Positions 7,750 through 20,373 of a stretch of 24,420 nt of DNA are shown here, piece after piece. A program made the translations under genes and the position numbers. The notes under the pieces are model-generated. The model worked only from the letters and a program-made list of their open reading frames with translations, was not told the DNA's origin and searched no databases. Each line of letters opens with the position of its first letter. The first letter of the stretch is position 1. The DNA is from a virus. The stretch lies in IMG/VR virus record IMGVR_UViG_3300043544_000178, positions 1 to 24,420 of that record, one strand, 5' to 3'.

Positions 7750-8208
7750 TTATCTATTCGTTGCAATAGCAATTATTTCTGTCGCCATTATTATTTTTAC
7801 TCCTGTATATGGAAACTCTTCAGGATTTGCTATATATTCTGTTGCAGGAAAAGAAAATATTGTGCATTTCCCATTTAAATTAGGATATTTTTCAAGTTCG
7901 TTTTTTATATCTTTTTCAATATCAAACATACCTTTATTATTTGCATCCCCGGTAATACGTATATCTTTGCCGTACACATCTATCCAGCAAGTTATTTCAA
8001 TCCTGAAAGTTATTTTTTTCTGCCTCGGTATTGTATGTATAACTTCTGCAGTATCAAGTGGATGAACAATTATAGTCGGGAATTGTTCAATATCTTCTCT
8101 TCTGCCTTGTATTATCTCTTTAACATATTCCAAAGAGCCACCTGGCTGATTTGCATTCTTCAGAATATTGACAACTTCAGTCCAGACTTCTTCAATTTTA
8201 TTTGCCAT
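7750..8208 (-). CDS. Putative tail terminator / head-tail joining protein
   Basis: A 152-residue alpha/beta protein. After an N-terminal helix comes FPTIIVHPLDTAEV, a strand pair containing ITFRIEITCWIDVYG, a helix (FDIEKDIKNELEKYP), and a last strand (GVKIIMATEIIAIAT). This layout resembles tail terminator (gpU-like) and minor tail proteins that cap the tube at the neck. Its start codon overlaps the stop of the gpG-like gene (TAATG), and the tail tube gene follows, matching the usual position of this function. The assignment rests on fold-like pattern and gene order, not on a signature motif. Confidence 0.65.
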   Translation of the reverse strand: MANKIEEVWTEVVNILKNANQPGGSLEYVKEIIQGRREDIEQFPTIIVHPLDTAEVIHTIPRQKKITFRIEITCWIDVYGKDIRITGDANNKGMFDIEKDIKNELEKYPNLNGKCTIFSFPATEYIANPEEFPYTGVKIIMATEIIAIATNR

Positions 8209-8810
8209 TATATTCTACCATAAAAGAACCATTTTCTGCAAGTTTCCTTTATCATTTCTTTATGCTTTTCTCTCAAATACAAAAATGGTCTTGCTGGTAT
8301 TTTATGTCCACCTTTGAAATGCATAACAAATTTAGAAACTCTTACTTGTGAACTCCTTCTCTTCGCAATAGTCTCAGGCTTTACAGGTCTCCCTCTATAA
8401 GTTGAAGGATAATTTCTATAGAAAGGACCAACTTCAACTTCTCCAGGCTCGCTAACTCCACCAAATTGATGTAATCTTCCATACTTTACATTTGTCCCTA
8501 CTATCGCAGAATTCTCCGTTGTTTCTGGGCTAATGCTCATTCTCAAATATCCTGTATCTTGTAGAATTTTAGGAGTTTTCGTTTTTTTCTTACTTCTTAC
8601 ACTTTTCACCCATAAAGTAAACCAACTCAAAGGCTTCCATTTTTCTTTATCTGTGCCTTCTTCCTGAAAATTCTGCATTACGCTTTTATACATCAATGTA
8701 GCAATATTTGATAATGGACTTCTTATATTTCTAAAATGCTCTAACTTATTTTTTACCGCTTCTTGCAACTCCTTAATGCCTTCTGTTTTTACTGCTATAG
8801 CAACTGCCAT
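8208..8810 (-). CDS. Mu gpG-like virion morphogenesis / tail completion protein
   Basis: A 200-residue basic protein matching the phage virion morphogenesis family (Mu gpG, P2 gpS). Visible signatures are KWKPLSWFTLWVK, KILQDTGYLRMSISPE, AIVGTNVKYGRLHQFGG and, near the end, IPARPFLYL. The family acts at the neck or tail end during head-tail completion. The middle holds a basic insertion (RSKKKTKTPK). It is followed with TAATG overlap by the tail terminator and preceded by the gp36-like gene with a 10-nt gap. No clear ribosome-binding site is visible at its start, so translation may be coupled. Confidence 0.87.
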   Translation of the reverse strand: MAVAIAVKTEGIKELQEAVKNKLEHFRNIRSPLSNIATLMYKSVMQNFQEEGTDKEKWKPLSWFTLWVKSVRSKKKTKTPKILQDTGYLRMSISPETTENSAIVGTNVKYGRLHQFGGVSEPGEVEVGPFYRNYPSTYRGRPVKPETIAKRRSSQVRVSKFVMHFKGGHKIPARPFLYLREKHKEMIKETCRKWFFYGRI

Positions 8811-9395: not shown

Positions 9396-10328
9396 TTACA
9401 CTACAGATTGCAACAAATATCCTGCATATGGTGAAATTACTCTTATATCGTATTTGTCGCTAACTCTTATCCAATCAGAACGTAATGGGTCATCTCTCCA
9501 TCTCTCTACCATTCTGTAGCCTTTTCGTCTAAATAAATAGCCAAAACTAATCTGTTTCAACCCGGGTCTCGGAGCAACATAAGCAAGCACTACACAGTTG
9601 TTCCAAATATTCGTCAAAGTTTCTTCCTGTCCTTCTGCGCTGGAAATATAACCACCGCCAGCAATTAAGTAATTGTCAATCTCAAAAAGTCTCGCTAATA
9701 ACTGTTCTGTCGTCACCCCTAATTGCGTATATTTTATTCTATCTACAATCACAGGATGGTCAAGTAAAACATTATGAACATCAGCGCTAACTATCATTGT
9801 ATTAGGATACAAGAAAATCTTATTTCTTATAGTCTCTTTCATATCACGCACTTTCTTCAGAGGATTTGAACTTGTGTAATCGCTCCACTTATCTGTTTCA
9901 GAAAGAGTTTCACTATGTTCAGGAGCATACGAATTCGGATCTTGTGCAACATCTGCTATATTCTTTTCTAAGTCAAGCAACAACATATTTGTTAGTATTT
10001 CAGTGCTATCAGCGTCGTATTGTATCGGGTCATCAGCATTATTTCTCACTTCGTCAATCAATTGCATTTCCAAAGAATGCTCTTTTGTGAAATAAGGAGC
10101 GGATTTCTCAATCGTCCATTCTACTTGTTTTGCACGAGTCCCAGGGGCACGTATCGTGTTAAATATTCTAAAATCTTGCTTCCCGTAAATGAAGTAAATA
10201 TCACTGTCTTTATTAACTAAAATAGGAGTAAACAATTTCTCACCCACAAAAGTTGCATTTTGGTATTTTACTGAGACTGTTGTTAATGCTACATCTACAT
10301 GGACATCTCTTGTTGTTGGCTGCGGCAT
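9396..10328 (-). CDS. Major capsid protein
   Basis: A 310-residue protein expected to form the icosahedral shell (HK97-type fold). N-terminal residues VDVALTTVSVKYQNATFVGEKLFTPI match the start of many Mu-like and related capsid proteins, where a helix is followed by the 'ANxxFIGxxxFPxVxV'-like element. The middle contains a probable spine helix (TEILTNMLLLDLEKNIADV). The C-terminal region ends YLFRRKGYRMVERWRDDP and IRVISPYAGYLL, typical of the P-domain and closing strand. AGGAGG precedes the ATG. It lies after the decoration protein and protease/scaffold genes, the classical order. Confidence 0.88.
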   Translation of the reverse strand: MPQPTTRDVHVDVALTTVSVKYQNATFVGEKLFTPILVNKDSDIYFIYGKQDFRIFNTIRAPGTRAKQVEWTIEKSAPYFTKEHSLEMQLIDEVRNNADDPIQYDADSTEILTNMLLLDLEKNIADVAQDPNSYAPEHSETLSETDKWSDYTSSNPLKKVRDMKETIRNKIFLYPNTMIVSADVHNVLLDHPVIVDRIKYTQLGVTTEQLLARLFEIDNYLIAGGGYISSAEGQEETLTNIWNNCVVLAYVAPRPGLKQISFGYLFRRKGYRMVERWRDDPLRSDWIRVSDKYDIRVISPYAGYLLQSVV

Positions 10329-10763: not shown

Positions 10764-12749
10764 TCATTTTTGTTTCAACATTTTTGATGCTTCTACCAAA
10801 GCATCTTTATACGAAATATTTTTACTTTTTGAAATATATTCTGCAAGTTGCGCTATTTCCACATTAACAATATTTTCATTAGGTCGTATTTCAGAATACA
10901 CTTTCATTATTTTCTCTTTTTCTTCTTCAAATTTCTCATTCAACTCACCTTCTTTTGGTATTTTCGCTAATTCTCCAAAAATCGCTATCTTGCTGTTTAC
11001 AAGGTCCTGCAAGAACTTGTAAAACAATTCCAACAAAGAATAATCTTTTTCGCCAAATTTTATTATCGTGTTCCGGTCTAAATTCTCTGTAAAGATGTCA
11101 ATATATTTATCAAATTTCGGTAATAACACATTACGGTTTTTCGTTTTCAACTCCTCAAACATCTTCTTATATTTTTCTTTTTCTAACTTTTTGATTTTTT
11201 CAGCTAATTCTTGTAATTTCCTGTTTTCGCTTTCTGTTCTTCGCCATTCTAAAGTTCCAGGCCACGTTCCGGTAGCTTTATACTTCAGCCAAGCGCAATA
11301 TCTTTCTGGATTATCAATTACATCTGAAACATTTTGGACGCAACTTGTGAAAGAGCCACCTAAACTCTCATAAGCACTCTTATAGCTTTCCTTTGTCCAT
11401 CCTTTTGGGTCCCCACCTGGTAATTGAAATCTACTAACGTTTTCATTCTCAGAAACTTTCGTTTTTAAAACTCCTTGAATTCTCCTTGTCTCATCAATCA
11501 TATCAGGCTCGTGTATAACATCTCCAATTTTATCTTTTATTTCATCCGGAACTTTTATTTTCGGGTTTTCTCGCATTTCAACTTCCTCAATTTTTTCTAA
11601 AGCAGTATCAATCTTTTTCTTACATTTGTCGTCTAAATCATCGTAATTTTTGTCAAAAATTGATTGCGCTAAAATATTTTTTATTTCTTTTTTATCTTCT
11701 TTGTTTTCTTCATCTTCCCCCGGGTTTTCTTGTCCTTGTCTGATAGGGACGCATTTCTGTTGTGCATCATCCCACTTATAACCTCGTGGGCAAATTTTCC
11801 TCTCTTCGTCTTTCTCTCGTCCTTTCTCACTTTCTTGCATAGGAACACAGCGTTCTAACTGTGTATCCCACTTAAAACCTTCCGGGCATTCAGGTTCCCC
11901 TTCTTGCAATTTGCTTAATCTAACTTTTGTGATTATTTCTGCTAATTTTTCACTATCTATTACATCTACTTTTTTCTCGTCCATAAACTTTTTAACTGCT
12001 TCTACACAACAAGGAAAGTATTTTTCTACGTCTTTCAAAGTCCAAATATTCATTGCTTTGTTTACCTCCTCTAAATTTCCCTCTGAGAAAGTTATACAAT
12101 TATATTTTGTTTCTGTATAATATAGTTTTTCAATATCTCCGAGGCCTTTCACTTCTGGTATATCTGCTCCTAATAACGCAACTGCCCTTAAGGCTTTGCC
12201 AAGTTTTTCTTTTGTTTCCGGGTGCGTGAAATCTTCGTAAATTTCTGCGCTAACTTTTGAATATGCTCGCTTCTCAATCAAATCTTTTATCTTCTTAGGA
12301 ACATTAACAAAATCTGCAAAAATCTGGTCTCCTAAACGGAATACTCTCGCAACGTAGCCTATTGCTGGCAAACCATCACTTTTGTATAACTCTTGGCTTT
12401 CATTATGTCCTAATTTCAGTGGTGGCTCAATTATATTTGTTTTTATCAATGCATTCGTGTTTTTAACAATTTCTTCTAAATCGTCAATAGTATACTCTTG
12501 ATTTTTCCAGAAGCCCGCTTTGAAAATAGGAACGTTTTCAATTGTGAAAGTGTCCGGCTGTTTCACTTTGATAGATATTTTTTTTGAAGGCTGTGGGATG
12601 TGAACATCGCTGACTGTAGGACCTACAAAGTCCATACTTTCACTTCCCCAAATACCGCCAGCAATATAACGTTGACATCTTTCCCTGCTCCAGCCTTTAT
12701 CCCGCATACATTTTTGTATCATCTTCTCAAGTTCTTCTTTTGTCGGCAT
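10764..12749 (-). CDS. Mu I-like capsid protease / scaffold protein
   Basis: About 661 residues from the ATG at 12749. A GTG at 12776 would add nine residues (numbering below uses that longer form). Residues 80-210 match the Mu protein I prohead protease: IFKAGFWKNQEYTIDDLEEI, EPPLKLGHNESQ with His124, LPAIGYVARVF, and KRAYSKVSAEIYE with Ser176. The C-terminal third is a Lys/Glu-rich helical region suited to scaffolding. Unusual extras are a Cys pair near the start (Cys23, Cys34), two copies of a CPxGxKWDxxxxxCVP module (Cys297-310 and Cys329-342), and an SCVQNVSDVIDNPERYCAWL module (Cys479-494). It follows the portal-MuF gene and precedes decoration and capsid genes. Neither start has a clear ribosome-binding site. 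Confidence 0.83.
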   Translation of the reverse strand: MPTKEELEKMIQKCMRDKGWSRERCQRYIAGGIWGSESMDFVGPTVSDVHIPQPSKKISIKVKQPDTFTIENVPIFKAGFWKNQEYTIDDLEEIVKNTNALIKTNIIEPPLKLGHNESQELYKSDGLPAIGYVARVFRLGDQIFADFVNVPKKIKDLIEKRAYSKVSAEIYEDFTHPETKEKLGKALRAVALLGADIPEVKGLGDIEKLYYTETKYNCITFSEGNLEEVNKAMNIWTLKDVEKYFPCCVEAVKKFMDEKKVDVIDSEKLAEIITKVRLSKLQEGEPECPEGFKWDTQLERCVPMQESEKGREKDEERKICPRGYKWDDAQQKCVPIRQGQENPGEDEENKEDKKEIKNILAQSIFDKNYDDLDDKCKKKIDTALEKIEEVEMRENPKIKVPDEIKDKIGDVIHEPDMIDETRRIQGVLKTKVSENENVSRFQLPGGDPKGWTKESYKSAYESLGGSFTSCVQNVSDVIDNPERYCAWLKYKATGTWPGTLEWRRTESENRKLQELAEKIKKLEKEKYKKMFEELKTKNRNVLLPKFDKYIDIFTENLDRNTIIKFGEKDYSLLELFYKFLQDLVNSKIAIFGELAKIPKEGELNEKFEEEKEKIMKVYSEIRPNENIVNVEIAQLAEYISKSKNISYKDALVEASKMLKQK

Positions 12750-12775
12750 AACTCGTCTAAGAACTTTCCTTTCCA

Positions 12776-12806
12776 CCGTGAAGGAATTTCAACAATTCCT
12801 CCACGG
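12776..12806 (-). promoter_or_regulatory. Hairpin burying an SD-like GGAGG before the protease gene
   Basis: The inverted repeat has 13-nt arms at 12776-12788 and 12794-12806 and a 5-nt loop. The one imperfect pair is G.U in minus RNA and A/C on the plus strand, so it fits minus-strand RNA best. GGAGG (12802-12798) lies in the 5' arm and the GTG start touches the 3' arm. No U-run follows, so it is not a terminator. Confidence 0.5.
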
Positions 12807-12946: not shown

Positions 12947-15900
12947 TTATCTCCTTCTTACAGAACCTGGTTTCTCAAAACCAATATCAGGTCTACAAGT
13001 TGCAGGTGGCGGCGGACTCTCTTCCCATTCTTCATCTTGCGTTATTGGAACTAAAACACATCTGCAATTTCCAGCCCAGACAGTTTTCCCATTTCTTCTA
13101 ACCCAAATGGTATGATATTTAGGAACTTCTACACAATAAATAAATCCTTTGTATTGCTCTACACTCAAATGTTTTTTATGAAATATGAAATATTCGCTTT
13201 CTAATTCTCTGACATAATATATATCAGTATTCAACTTATATACTCCGTTCTTAAATTTAACTTCTTTGCTTTTTCTTTTTTCAAAACTAAAAGAAGGACA
13301 GTGTCCAACTTTTAAAATCAATTCGCCTAAATCATCGGCCATTTTCTTACTTGATGTAAAATAAGATTTAATATCATTACTTACATATCCATCATCTAAA
13401 AGGTATGCATCAAGAAATTCTCTTATATTATCTTTTGTCATCTCTTTTATTTCTGCCGGGACATATTTTTCAAAAGATCTACCAAATTGTTGCAAATATT
13501 CAACTAATACAGGTAATGGCTTAACATAAATTGCATCTTTACCAACCCACAATAATTCTTTTATTTCAGATAATTTTTCAACTATTTCATATTTCTTATC
13601 TTGTTGTTGTGAAATTTTAATAATCCAGTTATTATTTGATTTTGAAATATTTCCTTCTGACAACCAATATCCTATAAATCTTGCGAATGTTTTTGCACTC
13701 ATTAATCCAAGATATTTTTCTTTATTTTTCCCAATCCATTTAGAAGTCCTGTAAAACAAATCACTATCAGCAATTTGATTAGCATTAATTAACTTAAGAT
13801 TATTTCTTTTCTGATGCCTATCCCAAGACTTTTGCACCAGCAAGTTGTGATTAGGAGTACATTTTAAATCAAAATTCCAAGCATTGAAATGATACATTTC
13901 GCCTTCATATTTATCTTCATACCATCTTATTGCTTTTTGCCATTCAATTGTCTTTGTTTTCGGGTTTATTGTTAGGAAATCTTCATTGCCTTTTAATTCT
14001 TTAAAGAGCTTCCAGCCTTCACTTGTATAAACTTCTGTCAATTCATCAAAACAATTAAAACCATTTGGCGGCGTATAAATATCCCATATTGGACTTGTGA
14101 TAGGATAAATTCTGCCATCCATACAGGCGTGATTTGGCCTAACTCTGTCATCAAGTATCGCTGAATATTGATATGCAACGACATAGCCTTCTAACTCCGG
14201 ACTTTCAAAGAATAACTTCCGCCCTTCATTCATTGCTTCATTGATATTTGTTCTTATAACAGTTTCTAATCTATATCCTCGTAAAGCCTCTTCCTCAACG
14301 AGTCCTCTTTTGTAGTAAGGTTCTAATTCTCTCTGTATCGCTTCAATCGTATCTCTTATAGTTGCGCCTGTTTTTATAGAATTCATTAAAATAGTTTTCA
14401 CTTTTTCTGTAATATAATTTGCTTCAATATCAGCCATATGAAAGGCTTTTTGCTCAAAAAACCTTCTTGCTTCTTCAAGATTTAGCCTTCTAATGTCTAT
14501 ATCATATTGAAATCTAACAACTTTCTCATTAAATCTTTTTGTAATTTCTCTTCTTGCTTGCTTTATTGCTTCTTCTAAAACGTCGTTGAACATATTTTTG
14601 AAAACTTCTGCAACTTTATTCACATCCGGAAATTCTATTTTGTTTATCGCATCAAACTTTTTCTCTTCTATTATTTTTTCTTTCTGTATTTGTGAAATAA
14701 TAGTATTTACGCTATTTTGTATTATTTCGCTAATCCTGGGAGTGTATTTTTCAACCCCGTTCTCTATAGTGAACTTCAACTCTGCAAAATCTACTTTTTC
14801 CTCATACTTGTAAAATTTCCTTCTTACAACACCAGTAAATATTTTTTCCTGGAACTTTTTAATTTTTTCACTTTTCTCAGTAAAAACTTCTTTTTGCTGT
14901 GTTGATGCTGGCAACTGCACTAAAGTCTCTTCTTCAATTTTCCTCTTTGGCAAATGTAGCCATTCTCTGATTTTTTCCTCATCTTCCGGAATAGGTTTAA
15001 TGATACCTTCTCGGACACCAGCGTAATACTTGTCTATTATTGCTGAAATATCTTCCTGGACGAGGGGATTAAATTCAAATTTCGGGTATTCGGAAACATC
15101 AAAATTATAATCTACAAGTCTTTTGATTATTTGATTATTTATCGCTTTAGTCGCTACATCTTCTCCTAATTGTTCTTCGTAAAATAATAAAATATCAAAA
15201 TGCACTTTTCCTAAAGAATAAGAACCAACTCCTGTAGTCTCCCTTGTTAAAGTCTGCCCTAAAACTGTCTTCCTGATTTGGTCGTTGATATATCTTATTG
15301 TGTCTAAAAACATACTTGACGAGCCCCCGGAACTTTCAATCAAATCAAGTTTCACATCTTCGGGTTTCAAAATTCCCATTTCTAAACGAATTTGCCTTAA
15401 AACTTCCATTAAGTATCTTTTTGTCACATCATCTACAGTTTTCGGGTATGAAATAACAGTGAAAGGATGCCCGAATTTTTCTAAATAAATACCCCACGCC
15501 TTCGTCACCACCTGCTTAAAAAACCATAAATCATACAAAGTCCTAATACGGCTTGTCCCAAATACATTTTCATATCGCTTATTAAAACTGTAAATGACAA
15601 ATTTATCTGTTGGATATTGCCTACCGTAATCTAATGCGCTAATATTCACAACACCATTCTCCATGATATTGTCAAAATCATCAACGTAGATATTGAAATA
15701 CTTTGGATTTTTGCTCTTTATTGCTTTTAACCCAATCATTCCTTTATACTTGCCTTCTGGAATTTCATATAAAACCAATTCATTAATACTGATACCCATT
15801 TCAAGAGCTCCCATTATTTCATTCAAATCGTCTGTAAAACTACCTTCTACATTCTCTAAATTCCATTTAATAAACTCGCAAACTTCTTTATCAATATTGT

Positions 15901-16198
15901 CGTCGCTGGCTGGATTTACAGTCCATCCTGAAGATAACCTTATAACTTTCAACATCTCAATAGAACTGCTGATCTCCTCATCAAGCATCATTTTGTTGAA
16001 AATATCAATTTTCCTTTTGCTAACGAGTTGGTCTGGCGTATAAGGGACTAACTTCATCCGCTTGTATATAGCGGACTCGTCAATCGCAAGCTCCGTTTCT
16101 AAGAAAGGCTCTTTCCCTTTAGTGTGAATAGGTTTTCTTTGCTGAATAACTTTGCCGACAAAATTGCCTAAATCTGCAAATTTTTTCAAAATGTCCAT
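12947..16198 (-). CDS. Portal-MuF fusion protein interrupted by an intein
   Basis: A 1083-residue precursor. Residues 1-430 resemble the Mu-like DUF935 portal (for example LDEEISSSIEMLKVIRLSSG, NVFGTSRIRTLYDLWFFK). A helical linker follows (about 470-590). Residues about 600-760 are a MuF-type minor head domain (TVIRTNINEAMNEGRKL, LDDRVRPNHACMDGRIYP, PPNGFN). The domain's closing CRC motif is split by a 329-residue intein (716-1044), so the spliced protein should be 754 residues. The portal ring is the DNA entry channel, and MuF proteins assist head assembly or DNA delivery. Fusion of the two in one gene is less common than separate genes. It starts 6 nt after the HExxE protein's stop codon and is followed by the protease gap. 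Confidence 0.92.
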   Translation of the reverse strand: MDILKKFADLGNFVGKVIQQRKPIHTKGKEPFLETELAIDESAIYKRMKLVPYTPDQLVSKRKIDIFNKMMLDEEISSSIEMLKVIRLSSGWTVNPASDDNIDKEVCEFIKWNLENVEGSFTDDLNEIMGALEMGISINELVLYEIPEGKYKGMIGLKAIKSKNPKYFNIYVDDFDNIMENGVVNISALDYGRQYPTDKFVIYSFNKRYENVFGTSRIRTLYDLWFFKQVVTKAWGIYLEKFGHPFTVISYPKTVDDVTKRYLMEVLRQIRLEMGILKPEDVKLDLIESSGGSSSMFLDTIRYINDQIRKTVLGQTLTRETTGVGSYSLGKVHFDILLFYEEQLGEDVATKAINNQIIKRLVDYNFDVSEYPKFEFNPLVQEDISAIIDKYYAGVREGIIKPIPEDEEKIREWLHLPKRKIEEETLVQLPASTQQKEVFTEKSEKIKKFQEKIFTGVVRRKFYKYEEKVDFAELKFTIENGVEKYTPRISEIIQNSVNTIISQIQKEKIIEEKKFDAINKIEFPDVNKVAEVFKNMFNDVLEEAIKQARREITKRFNEKVVRFQYDIDIRRLNLEEARRFFEQKAFHMADIEANYITEKVKTILMNSIKTGATIRDTIEAIQRELEPYYKRGLVEEEALRGYRLETVIRTNINEAMNEGRKLFFESPELEGYVVAYQYSAILDDRVRPNHACMDGRIYPITSPIWDIYTPPNGFNCFDELTEVYTSEGWKLFKELKGNEDFLTINPKTKTIEWQKAIRWYEDKYEGEMYHFNAWNFDLKCTPNHNLLVQKSWDRHQKRNNLKLINANQIADSDLFYRTSKWIGKNKEKYLGLMSAKTFARFIGYWLSEGNISKSNNNWIIKISQQQDKKYEIVEKLSEIKELLWVGKDAIYVKPLPVLVEYLQQFGRSFEKYVPAEIKEMTKDNIREFLDAYLLDDGYVSNDIKSYFTSSKKMADDLGELILKVGHCPSFSFEKRKSKEVKFKNGVYKLNTDIYYVRELESEYFIFHKKHLSVEQYKGFIYCVEVPKYHTIWVRRNGKTVWAGNCRCVLVPITQDEEWEESPPPPATCRPDIGFEKPGSVRRR
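13067..14053 (-). mobile_element. Intein with LAGLIDADG homing endonuclease
   Basis: A 329-residue intein in the portal-MuF gene. It begins with Cys (CFDELTEVYTSEGWKLFKEL, block A) and has the block B motif LKCTPNHN (Thr66, His69). Two LAGLIDADG-type helices follow, FIGYWLSEG (127-134) and FLDAYLLDDG (213-222), with acidic residues Glu133 and Asp221. It ends with a block F/G region FIYCVEVPKYHTIWV and NGKTVWAGN; the next extein residue is Cys. It sits exactly before the conserved CRC of the MuF domain. The residue before the terminal Asn is Gly instead of the usual His. Two LAGLIDADG motifs suggest a monomeric homing enzyme. Confidence 0.93.
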
Positions 16199-16812: not shown

Positions 16813-18432
16813 TTAAGTAAATTCAAAAAAGTGTGAACTTTCCAACTCAACGCCAGAAAATTGTATATCTTTTTCAAAAACAACATTTTCCTCAGGCTCT
16901 TGTATACACCAGTATGTTGCTCCTGCTAAAGCATCTGCAACGTCTTTACTTCCTTTAGGGGGGTGATCTACTTTTTCTTTCCTTTTTTCTAAATATCTCA
17001 ATTCTTTAATTAAATATTCTTCTGGGTTTTCTACACAAAAATTTATTTTTTCCCAGTTTATGTAAGGAAGGACAATTTTTCTATCGTAAATTAATTCTCT
17101 CAAGGTGTCGTATGGCTGAGGGTTTTTGTCAACAGATAAAAGTTCTACTTGGAGTCCTTGACTCTGTAATATTTGTATACTATCAATACTTTGGAATCCA
17201 TCATAAGATATTTTTTTAATGTTATAGCCTTTTTCTTTCAATTGCAAAATAATTTGTCGGACTTCGCTAAATTTTATAGGGTTTTGCTGGCTCCCTTGCA
17301 TTCTATAAATCAACAAAGGCTTAATAATATTATTTTCTTTGTAAACAGCACAAAGTCCGCAAGCATCGTTTGTTAGTCCTAAGTCTACGTGAATATATAT
17401 ATTTTTTTTAGTTTTTTCTAACTTATTCCATAAGATTTGTTCTTTTTCTACGGGATTTTTTAAGCTCTCAAGAATAACATTTTTTAACATTTCCGGGTTA
17501 GCCAGCCAAGGTCTAATAGTTTCTGTAGGGACTGCCAAAATATCTCTTTTGAAGACATCTGGGTTTTTTTCTGCCTCAACAAATAAACTTTTAGGGATTT
17601 TGTAGCCTTGCCAATCAACAAATTCCTCATTAACAAAAAACCACGGTTTTATTTCCCACAATTTCTTTCTAACTCCAAAGACATCAGGCCTATCTATTAA
17701 ACTTTCAATGTAATTATCAGGATAACTCGGGTTAGAGATTAAAACAATTTTCCAGTTATAGTTATTCCCATATCTATTGTTTAGCCGTTTTTCTAAAGTT
17801 TCAAACGTATCTTTCAAGTAGTCTTTTTCTTGTGTTTTTTCCCACCATGCTACTTCGTCCATAATAACTACTACGAGGTTATAGCCGAAAGGATTTGTTT
17901 CTTCAGAATTTCCAGGGATAATGAAGATATTTTTCTTAAACTCAAGTTCGCTTCTTTTTTCTGGGTTTGGCGGGCAGAAATTCTTAAACCAGAAAGAATT
18001 ATCAATTCTCGCTTTTATCTCGCTAAATACTACTTTTCTTGCTTGTAGTCCATTTTGGCTCATATTCATTATTGCAATATTACTACCTTCTGCCAAATTT
18101 AACACTTTTTGTGGGTTTTTAAAACACAACAATTTGTGAACTTCATAACTTGCAATAATAGAAGATAGATAACTTTTTCCACATCCGGGAGGCATTATAA
18201 AAACACCAATATGTTTCTTACTATCATAAAAAGAAATTAAAATATCTAAAATAGTATCCCAACATTCTTTCGCATTTAAATAAAACTCGCTTCTCACGAA
18301 CTCTTTAATATTTTTAGCTTGTCTATGTTCATATTCTGGATAGACATTGTGGTATATAGCATCTGCAATATTATATTTTTCAATTTCTGAAAGTTTTTCA
18401 AATTCCTTTGCAATTCTTTTTTTCCTACCCAT
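16813..18432 (-). CDS. terL: Terminase large subunit
   Basis: A 539-residue DNA-packaging motor. Walker A is PPGCGKS (residues 81-87) and Walker B is VVVIMDE (187-193) followed by VAWWE. The coupling motif region reads VLISNPS. The C-terminal RNase H-like nuclease shows IYIHVDLGLTNDACG (Asp350), KISYDGFQS (Asp411) and GSKDVADALAGATYW (Asp497, Asp500). The protein translocates DNA into the prohead through the portal and cuts concatemers. The ATG at 18432 overlaps the small terminase stop by 8 nt; a TTG at 18447 would add five residues and is less likely. Length is normal for the family. A gap with terminator-like and promoter-like sites follows. Confidence 0.95.
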   Translation of the reverse strand: MGRKKRIAKEFEKLSEIEKYNIADAIYHNVYPEYEHRQAKNIKEFVRSEFYLNAKECWDTILDILISFYDSKKHIGVFIMPPGCGKSYLSSIIASYEVHKLLCFKNPQKVLNLAEGSNIAIMNMSQNGLQARKVVFSEIKARIDNSFWFKNFCPPNPEKRSELEFKKNIFIIPGNSEETNPFGYNLVVVIMDEVAWWEKTQEKDYLKDTFETLEKRLNNRYGNNYNWKIVLISNPSYPDNYIESLIDRPDVFGVRKKLWEIKPWFFVNEEFVDWQGYKIPKSLFVEAEKNPDVFKRDILAVPTETIRPWLANPEMLKNVILESLKNPVEKEQILWNKLEKTKKNIYIHVDLGLTNDACGLCAVYKENNIIKPLLIYRMQGSQQNPIKFSEVRQIILQLKEKGYNIKKISYDGFQSIDSIQILQSQGLQVELLSVDKNPQPYDTLRELIYDRKIVLPYINWEKINFCVENPEEYLIKELRYLEKRKEKVDHPPKGSKDVADALAGATYWCIQEPEENVVFEKDIQFSGVELESSHFFEFT

Positions 18433-18847
18433 TGTTGTTTTTCTCAAAATCTTTTTCTAAGACATCTAAAATTTCTTTTGCAACTTTAGGATCAATATTT
18501 AGCATATTGTTAACATTTTGTTGAGAAATGACATTTACTTGGTTATCTGTAGTGCGGAATTCCGGATGCCTTGTTTTTAAAAAAAAGATGATAGCAGTGA
18601 GATTTCCTTCTCGTATTGCTATAAGAAGTTTAGATTTTGTGTAGTCAAGCAATTCTTTTTCAGCGTCTCTAATTTCTTTAGCGAGTTCCTGGTCTTTTTC
18701 AAGCCATTCAAAAGCGGTTTTTGGAGCAATACCTACTTCTCTTGCTGCACCGACAACAGTAAATTGTTTCCTATAAGCATCTATGAATTTTTTCTTTATT
18801 TCTAAGATTTGTTTTTGTTGCTTTTTTGTCGGCCTTCCTATTTTCAT
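18425..18847 (-). CDS. terS: Terminase small subunit
   Basis: A 140-residue protein. The N-terminus (GRPTKKQQKQ) leads into a helix-turn-helix: AYRKQFTVVGAAREVGIAPK with the recognition helix TAFEWLEKD. The middle has the common small-terminase pattern LIAIREGNLTAIIFFLKTRH, and the C-terminus is polar and charged, as expected for the oligomerisation and large-subunit contact part. It recognises phage DNA for packaging. Its start lies one base after the end of the glycosyltransferase-like gene and no ribosome-binding site is visible, so translation is probably coupled. Its 3' end overlaps the large terminase start. Confidence 0.88.
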   Translation of the reverse strand: MKIGRPTKKQQKQILEIKKKFIDAYRKQFTVVGAAREVGIAPKTAFEWLEKDQELAKEIRDAEKELLDYTKSKLLIAIREGNLTAIIFFLKTRHPEFRTTDNQVNVISQQNVNNMLNIDPKVAKEILDVLEKDFEKNNNG

Positions 18848-18848
18848 A

Positions 18849-19787
18849 TTAAATCAATAAAGGTTCAATGTGTTCTTTTACTTGTTTTTCAAGTTCAATG
18901 AAGTCATTTTTTACATTCTCAAGCCATTTTTTTTGTTTTTGTAGTGCTTCAGAATAATTTAAAGTTTTTATTTTATTTGCCAAATCTTCTTTATTATCTA
19001 CAATAAAATCACTGATATCAATTCCGTATCTATTAAAAGTATTAATGCAATTTTTATCAAAGAGTAAGACGGTATCGTAGCTTAAAGCTTCATAAAATCT
19101 ATTTGCAGGGAAATTATAACATTTGTGAGTGAAGGGGTCTTCAATATATAACGAATATTTGAATAACCTGAGTTCACTATTTTTCACACCTAATCTTATT
19201 TTGCTTATAATTTTCAAGTTATTTCCGCATAGCTTTTTTAGTTTACTGATATGTTTTTTATGGAAAGATAGAATTATATTTGGGTTGTTGGTAAAATATT
19301 TTTGAAAATACGGAATTCTAAAAATTCTAAAAGTTCCATAATATATCACATTGTATTTTTTTTCGTCAACAAAAGAGCAATTGAAATCGTAATAAGACAA
19401 ACAATTGACATTTATTACTATTCTTTTTTTGTAATATCTTTTAATTTTTTCAAATTCGTAGTTAGTAATAAGCAAATCAATAGGTCGGGTTTTAAAAATT
19501 TTTTGAAAATCTGAACTTTCTGACAAATTGTATTCGTTAAAAAACCTAATTATTTTTGCTTCAGGGTGTCTTTGTATAAATTTTGCTTTTTCAGTAATAT
19601 TACTTAATTGCCCAAAACCGTAAGGAATAAATATAACATTAATTTTTTTATCATCAAAAAAAGACATTTGTTCAACTGTCTCAATAGTAATAAAATCATA
19701 TTTTTCTCGCAAATAATTAACGAAATAATTGAAAGCCGAAAGAGTATCTCCTGATCTCAATTTCAGAATAAGATTTATTTTCCCCAT
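18849..19787 (-). CDS. Glycosyltransferase-like protein (GT-B fold)
   Basis: A 312-residue protein with two apparent Rossmann-like halves. The N-terminal half has alternating strands (INVIFIPYGFG, KIIRFFNEYNLSES, IDLLITNYEF). The linker is INVNCLSYY. The C-terminal half starts YNVIYYGTFRIFRIPYFQKY and contains the nucleotide-sugar type element FPANRFYEALSYDTVLLF (226-243), followed by IVDNKEDLANKI. This is the layout of family 1/4-like glycosyltransferases and of uncharacterised phage relatives. The acceptor could be phage DNA or a virion protein. It overlaps the ParB-like gene by 13 nt and lies one base before the small terminase, so it is co-expressed with packaging genes. No DxD motif is expected in this fold. 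I am moderately sure of the fold, not of the substrate. Confidence 0.65.
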   Translation of the reverse strand: MGKINLILKLRSGDTLSAFNYFVNYLREKYDFITIETVEQMSFFDDKKINVIFIPYGFGQLSNITEKAKFIQRHPEAKIIRFFNEYNLSESSDFQKIFKTRPIDLLITNYEFEKIKRYYKKRIVINVNCLSYYDFNCSFVDEKKYNVIYYGTFRIFRIPYFQKYFTNNPNIILSFHKKHISKLKKLCGNNLKIISKIRLGVKNSELRLFKYSLYIEDPFTHKCYNFPANRFYEALSYDTVLLFDKNCINTFNRYGIDISDFIVDNKEDLANKIKTLNYSEALQKQKKWLENVKNDFIELEKQVKEHIEPLLI

Positions 19788-20314
19788 ATTTTTATGAACT
19801 CTTCATATTTTACTCGTCTTTTTTTAATTTTCAAAATTTCTATAACTTTTTGCATTTCTTCTTCTGATTTGCATACGATTGATACATTATATGTATTTTG
19901 CAATTCGTTCAAATCAATGAATTTTATATCATCTACTTTTATATTTGCAATTGTTGACAAGTCAAAGCCAACATTTTTTAACAAATCTTCATCAAAGTTG
20001 GCGAGCAAATCAAAATCCCATTCACCTAAATTTTTATTTAATCTCAAATTTAATTCTTTTTCTTTTTCAATATCCGGAATGTTTACGTAAATAACAGGAA
20101 CTTCTTTATAACCTAAATCTTTCAAAATTTTCAATCTAAAATGTCCTCCTATGACTATATTTTTCCTATTTTCCGCTGAATTAACAATGAGAGGATCTAC
20201 TACGCCAAATTTGAGGATACTTTTTTTCAAATCTTCGTATTCTTTTTTTGTAGCCTTCCTGGGGTTGTATTCTGAAGGTTTCAAATCGTCAATATTTACA
20301 TATGTAATCTCCAT
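19775..20314 (-). CDS. ParB/sulfiredoxin-like domain protein
   Basis: A 179-residue protein starting MEITYVNIDDLKPSEYNPR, the classic ParB N-terminal box, followed by LKKSILKFGVVDPLIVN and NIVIGGHFRLKIL (the GxxR motif, Gly57-Arg60), then EVPVIYVNIPD and LNKNLGEWDFDLLANF. Phage proteins of this type occur beside terminase and DNA-modification genes and may act as nucleases, NTP-binding regulators or modification partners. A TTG at 20344 would extend it by ten residues; the ATG at 20314 is preferred because the ParB box starts there. It has no partition partner (ParA) nearby. It heads a coupled set with the glycosyltransferase-like and terminase genes. Confidence 0.85.
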   Translation of the reverse strand: MEITYVNIDDLKPSEYNPRKATKKEYEDLKKSILKFGVVDPLIVNSAENRKNIVIGGHFRLKILKDLGYKEVPVIYVNIPDIEKEKELNLRLNKNLGEWDFDLLANFDEDLLKNVGFDLSTIANIKVDDIKFIDLNELQNTYNVSIVCKSEEEMQKVIEILKIKKRRVKYEEFIKIWGK

Positions 20315-20373
20315 AACAAAATAAATTTTGGAAAAAAAAGACAAAAATATGGTTTTAAGATTGTTCAGGAAAT

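Follow-up and report, generated by a model that had tools for sequence, protein, structure and literature searches.

An intein with glycine before its terminal asparagine at the CRC motif of a phage portal-MuF fusion protein

Introduction

About 5% of the functional inteins lack the penultimate histidine (G:6), and reversion to histidine helps some of these and harms others; at position F:4, cysteine is the second commonest residue among inteins generally (PMC4031507). In mycobacteriophages, whose intein-bearing proteins include portal proteins, the penultimate position varies (Gly, Lys, Ser), and the RDF intein of Bethlehem gp51, which has Gly at this place, splices completely, while its Gly-to-His variant accumulates precursor and is slower (PMC5050341). 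An intein in a MuF homologue (gp30) was described in 2004 for a Mu-like prophage of Methylococcus capsulatus, and splicing was proposed there as a possible means of regulating head morphogenesis (PMC517821).

The intein analyzed here interrupts a portal-MuF fusion encoded on a 24,420-base IMG/VR virus record (the window, i.e., the whole stretch of DNA that was studied). Like the Bethlehem RDF intein it is phage-borne, belongs to class 1 and features Cys1, Gly before the terminal Asn and a homing endonuclease domain (PMC5050341), while host protein and insertion site differ. It shares the location inside a MuF protein with the intein of the Methylococcus capsulatus prophage F that, compared by description, was reported to have no endonuclease and to be similar to the inteins of archaeal IF-2 (PMC517821). 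The ThyX intein of Corynebacterium phage P1201 (DQ499600), 28.5% identical over the whole intein, has the Cys at F:4 and the C-terminal signature in common with it and differs by its thymidylate synthase host and Ser at +1. A Hint domain with an inserted LAGLIDADG endonuclease is likewise present in the TliVMA and PhoVMA inteins (PDB 7qsu, 7qss, 7qst; Z 22.6-25.5), which differ in sequence (about 18-20% identity) and reside in archaeal ATPases. The same portal-MuF site and the same Gly-Asn-Cys junction are found on two IMG/VR contigs, termed L005 and L006. Each element has a precedent; the combination and a recurrent, Gly-bearing intein family at the MuF CRC site were not found described in the literature searched.

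Host Protein, Intein Boundaries and Fold

The open frame extends on the minus strand from an ATG at 16198 to a stop at 12947. Its features are as follows, all on the minus strand:

12947..16198, minus: portal-MuF-intein precursor gene, 1083 aa (frame, Pfam)
14054..16198, minus: N-extein, residues 1-715 (empty-site homologues)
14963..16006, minus: Portal_Mu domain PF06074, residues 65-412 (Pfam; phrog_113 portal)
14054..14404, minus: MuF domain PF04233 / TIGR01641, residues 599-715, broken just ahead of the CRC motif (Pfam, NCBIfam)
13067..14053, minus: intein, 329 aa, residues 716-1044, GC 28.7% (empty sites, fold model)
14051..14053, minus: Cys1, first nucleophile (Cys in 101/102 relatives, Ser in one)
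13847..13858, minus: block B T-P-N-H, intein Thr66 and His69 (Thr in 95/102, His in 101/102 relatives)
13652..13678, minus: first LAGLIDADG helix FIGYWLSEG, intein 126-134, acidic Glu133
13388..13417, minus: second LAGLIDADG helix FLDAYLLDDG, intein 213-222, acidic Asp221
13100..13144, minus: block F FIYCVEVPKYHTIWV, Cys307 at F:4, His314 at F:13
13067..13090, minus: block G GKTVWAGN, Gly328 (G:6, bases 13070-13072) and terminal Asn329
12947..13066, minus: C-extein, CRCVLVPITQDEE..., 39 aa and stop; +1 Cys at 13064-13066 (empty-site homologues)

Within this single frame, matches to Portal_Mu (E 1e-56) and Phage_Mu_F (residues 599-716, E 9e-15) identify the host as a portal-MuF fusion, an architecture that also occurs in homologues with an empty site, and the PHROGs matches agree, with portal (phrog_113) being followed by minor head protein / head morphogenesis. 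The surrounding genes form a normal head module, comprising terminase large subunit (16813-18447), head maturation protease (10764-12776), major head protein (9396-10328) and neck protein (8208-8810). Near this module, a ParB-like / methyltransferase-associated protein (phrog_498, phrog_620) is encoded at 19775-20344 of the window.

Homologous portal-MuF genes without the insert were retrieved with a three-row alignment of the N-extein; the extein used as a single-sequence query yielded no matches. Nine such genes (L143, L144, L145, L146, L148, L149, L150, L151 and L152) read ...PPNGFN/CRC-[LI]-[IV]-P[IV]... without interruption across the proposed junction (marked by the slash), with GFN or GYN and, in one case, GFS ahead of it; the flanks can be juxtaposed on the DNA level, too. 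Since they join exactly at GFN/CRC, they fix the intein boundaries independently. Joining of the exteins yields a predicted spliced product of 754 aa. A reading made from the sequence alone had placed an intein at the CRC motif within a portal-MuF fusion, and both the Pfam domains and the empty-site junctions bear this out; its coordinates and the lengths of 754 and 329 residues were right, and the strand, which it had not given, is minus. It had also named, as an observation that would speak against an intein, homologues carrying the segment as a normal part of the protein, to which the nine insert-free genes give a negative answer. In L146 (3001-5094) one in-frame stop lies inside the portal-MuF match, possibly due to a sequencing error or a broken gene.

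Profile matches to the insert itself comprise LAGLIDADG_3 (2.8e-5, Pfam), Intein_splicing under the cut-off and a weak match to NCBIfam intein_Nterm (0.0036). An AlphaFold2 model of the intein plus six residues on each side (mean pLDDT 94.9, pTM 0.93) exhibits the Hint fold expected for class 1. The best match among solved structures is the TliVMA intein (Z 25.5 over 302 residues); many inteins match at Z 15-25, and LAGLIDADG inteins align over the full length of the model. The two LAGLIDADG helices with acidic Glu133 and Asp221 are those of a LAGLIDADG homing endonuclease, the activity of which is predicted. The set of splicing blocks recognized earlier (A, B, two LAGLIDADG helices, F/G) proved complete as judged by the conserved residues.

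Cys1, the block B motif TPNH and Asn329 followed by Cys (terminal Asn plus Cys, Ser or Thr in 102/102 relatives) assign the intein to class 1. The penultimate His, usual but not obligatory in this class, is replaced by Gly328; because functional inteins differing at G:6 are established (PMC4031507), His is not a defining feature at this position. Class 2 (KlbA type, Ala1) is ruled out by Cys1. Class 3, considered on account of Cys at F:4, is incompatible with the presence of Cys1, Leu at B:12 and Ala at G:5, i.e., there is no WCT, and a bacterial intein-like (BIL) domain is ruled out by the presence of block G and Cys+1.

Glycine Before the Terminal Asparagine

The C-terminal splice junction reads WAGN/CRC, and the penultimate Gly reported in the sequence-only reading is thus confirmed. 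Searches with intein alignments of three and then 32 rows yielded more than 500 viral matches, the top 80 of each scan being used, and 19 cellular loci. Removal of sequences at least 90% alike from these best viral matches and the cellular ones left 102 full-length, non-redundant relatives. As the search patterns reside in the N-terminal and endonuclease parts, there was no direct selection for Gly. The penultimate residue is Gly in 95, Ser in five, Thr in one, Lys in one and His in none of the 102 sampled relatives, a count that describes one clade and not independent events, all of them being relatives of a Gly-bearing query. Terminal Asn is invariant (102/102) and Cys1 (101, Ser in one) and the block B His (101) nearly so, while the +1 residue is Cys in 47, Ser in 36 and Thr in 19 relatives. 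On the basis of these alignments, Gly before the terminal Asn is the normal residue of a large, mainly phage intein clade, and it recurs in other MuF inteins, as had been proposed for checking.

F:4 is Cys in 74 and F:13 is His in 77 of the 102 relatives, and in 25 His is absent from G:6 and F:13 together. The His at F:13 has been lost in 21 of 74 members with Cys at F:4 vs. two of 25 members with Asp at this position. All members with Ser or Thr at G:6 have Asp at F:4. Common descent may be the source of these associations. In L005, which contains the closest intein, Asn replaces the block F His. The intein C-terminus of L005 and L002 (KYNTLWIRRNGKTVWAGN) is devoid of His at both G:6 and F:13.

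With respect to hosts, the flanks of clade members, judged by eye, indicate MCM helicase-, RNA polymerase beta- and terminase-like sites, and the annotated ThyX of phage P1201 carries an intein ending in RRNGKPVWSGN/S. Plasmids provided one distant relative. Gly-Asn inteins of the clade were also observed in archaeal and Patescibacteria bins (L057, L063, L064, L067, L107 and L132), at sites resembling MCM helicase and other replication/transcription genes; because of these copies, the clade is not confined to phages.

The MuF CRC Motif as a Recurrent Target

Thirty-five sampled inteins reside at a MuF CRC (or CxC/CxH) motif. The junction motif is the basis on which all 35 were assigned to MuF; of ten that were scanned, nine gave a PF04233 match, two of them under the cut-off. 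In a maximum-likelihood tree of 69 inteins, 35 of 35 MuF-site inteins fall into one clade of 37 rows with a support of 100/97 (bootstrap not fully settled), and the MuF-site label requires three changes on the tree as compared to a shuffled mean of 23.5. Their hosts include stand-alone MuF proteins as well as MuF fused to portals of families PF06074, PF04860 and, weakly, PF07230. The intein follows the site and not the portal-MuF fusion.

Amino acid identity of the intein amounts to 87% with the L005 intein and 80% with the L006 intein, whereas the N-exteins share 48-50% identity with L005 and 57-58% with L006. The two rankings disagree, with L005 containing the closer intein in the more distant host. 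Furthermore, the L005 host protein shares 90% identity with the empty homologues L151 and L152. Judged from these identities, the intein has either moved between divergent phages or entered the L005 lineage, an event that is recent compared with the separation of the host genes. The discordance between intein and exteins and the empty closest hosts of L005 therefore point to lateral movement of the kind that a homing intein would undergo, and transfer into the same site alongside nine empty sites is the pattern of a mobile intein. The intein dN/dS is 0.07-0.11 relative to L005 and L006, rough values as dS is near 1; this low ratio shows that selection maintains the protein, splicing residues included.

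In related phages, inteins of the clade also occur next to portal-MuF. In IMGVR_UViG_3300009503_000212 (L112 and L146) and in L133, the gene just upstream of portal-MuF holds a clade intein at another site; this gene is ATP-grasp-like by eye (compare L002 458-1603), and the portal-MuF of L146 is empty. In L045 a CRC-site intein contains many stops in the tblastn frame (31) and represents a frameshifted or decayed copy.

Discussion

Very probably, the insert is an ordinary, LAGLIDADG-containing mobile class 1 intein of the Gly clade that splices autocatalytically to a 754-aa portal-MuF protein and a 329-aa intein and spreads by means of its endonuclease. Located between Asn715 and the CRC motif of the fusion, it would follow the standard four steps, i.e., an acyl shift at Cys1, transfer to Cys+1, cyclization of Asn329 and an S-N shift. 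His314 (F:13), along with the other active-site residues, would most likely be responsible for Asn cyclization, and the products would be the portal-MuF protein and the free intein. The endonuclease of present or recent ancestral copies would spread the intein into empty MuF genes. The boundaries, the conserved splicing residues, purifying selection, lateral transfer and the recurrence of Gly are evident from the sequences; splicing itself, its constitutive nature and cleavage by the endonuclease are what we infer.

Cleavage by the endonuclease bears on a variant that we consider a serious possibility, albeit not the favored one, namely that the intein is splicing-competent and no longer mobile, the endonuclease of the present copy starting to decay. 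Asp220 in the second LAGLIDADG helix is unique among the 102 relatives, 90 of which have Gly here, and the loop after this helix comprises 12 residues vs. 23-24 in the three nearest relatives, a shortening by 11 residues; on account of both features the endonuclease of this copy may be weakened. On the other hand, both catalytic acidic residues, Glu133 and Asp221, are retained and loops of 12 residues occur in other relatives, too.

For the ordinary Gly-clade intein, the participation of His314 is itself a point to be weighed. It is conceivable, but in our view unlikely, that the clade has replaced two-histidine catalysis of Asn cyclization by another catalytic setup, located in a C-terminal hairpin that is two residues longer than usual and carries the fixed motif R-R-N-G-x-x-x-W-x-G-N. 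The members without His at F:13, including L005, are the interesting ones for the mechanism. The conserved Arg-Arg pair (319-320), considered as a substitute for His, is not an obvious candidate according to the model, in which strands 321-326 and 329-334 place the pair beside the hairpin turn, far from Asn329 in the pairing. The sequence-only reading had offered two explanations for Gly, a substitute for the penultimate His or slow or conditional splicing. The first is the better branch, given the prevalence of Gly in the clade and the Bethlehem result (PMC5050341), even though no substitute residue emerged.

The second branch, according to which Gly at G:6, in combination with Cys at F:4, retards or controls splicing and thereby withholds mature portal-MuF until the right time or redox state, is quite improbable. 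The insert does sit in a head-assembly protein, its three active-site cysteines (1, F:4 and +1) could form disulfides, and environment-sensitive inteins have precedents. This notion was put forward earlier for the MuF intein of the Methylococcus prophage (PMC517821). However, Gly is fixed across the clade in unrelated hosts and is thus not tuned to head assembly, the tested phage Gly intein splices faster with Gly than with His (PMC5050341), and the presence and absence of the insert are scattered among close relatives, resembling a parasite and not a conserved switch. With Gly in 95 and His in none of the 102 relatives, and with the mycobacteriophage intein being slowed by the Gly-to-His change (PMC5050341), the residue does not qualify as a mark of slow or conditional splicing. 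In our analysis the regulatory reading lacks positive support, and the best experimental precedent argues against Gly as a brake.

It is extremely improbable that the insert belongs to the protein as a normal, non-splicing segment or represents a dead intein: displacement of a short C-extein of 39 aa might be tolerated, but nine homologues lack the insert with an exact junction, the splicing nucleophiles are all intact and the insert is under purifying selection.

For the ordinary mobile intein proposed here, the odd Gly is common to a successful group of phage inteins, being neither a defect nor a regulatory signal specific to this head protein. The MuF CRC motif is a repeated homing target, in stand-alone MuF proteins as well as in fusions to three portal families, and the Gly clade offers natural material for asking how Asn cyclizes without the usual histidines.
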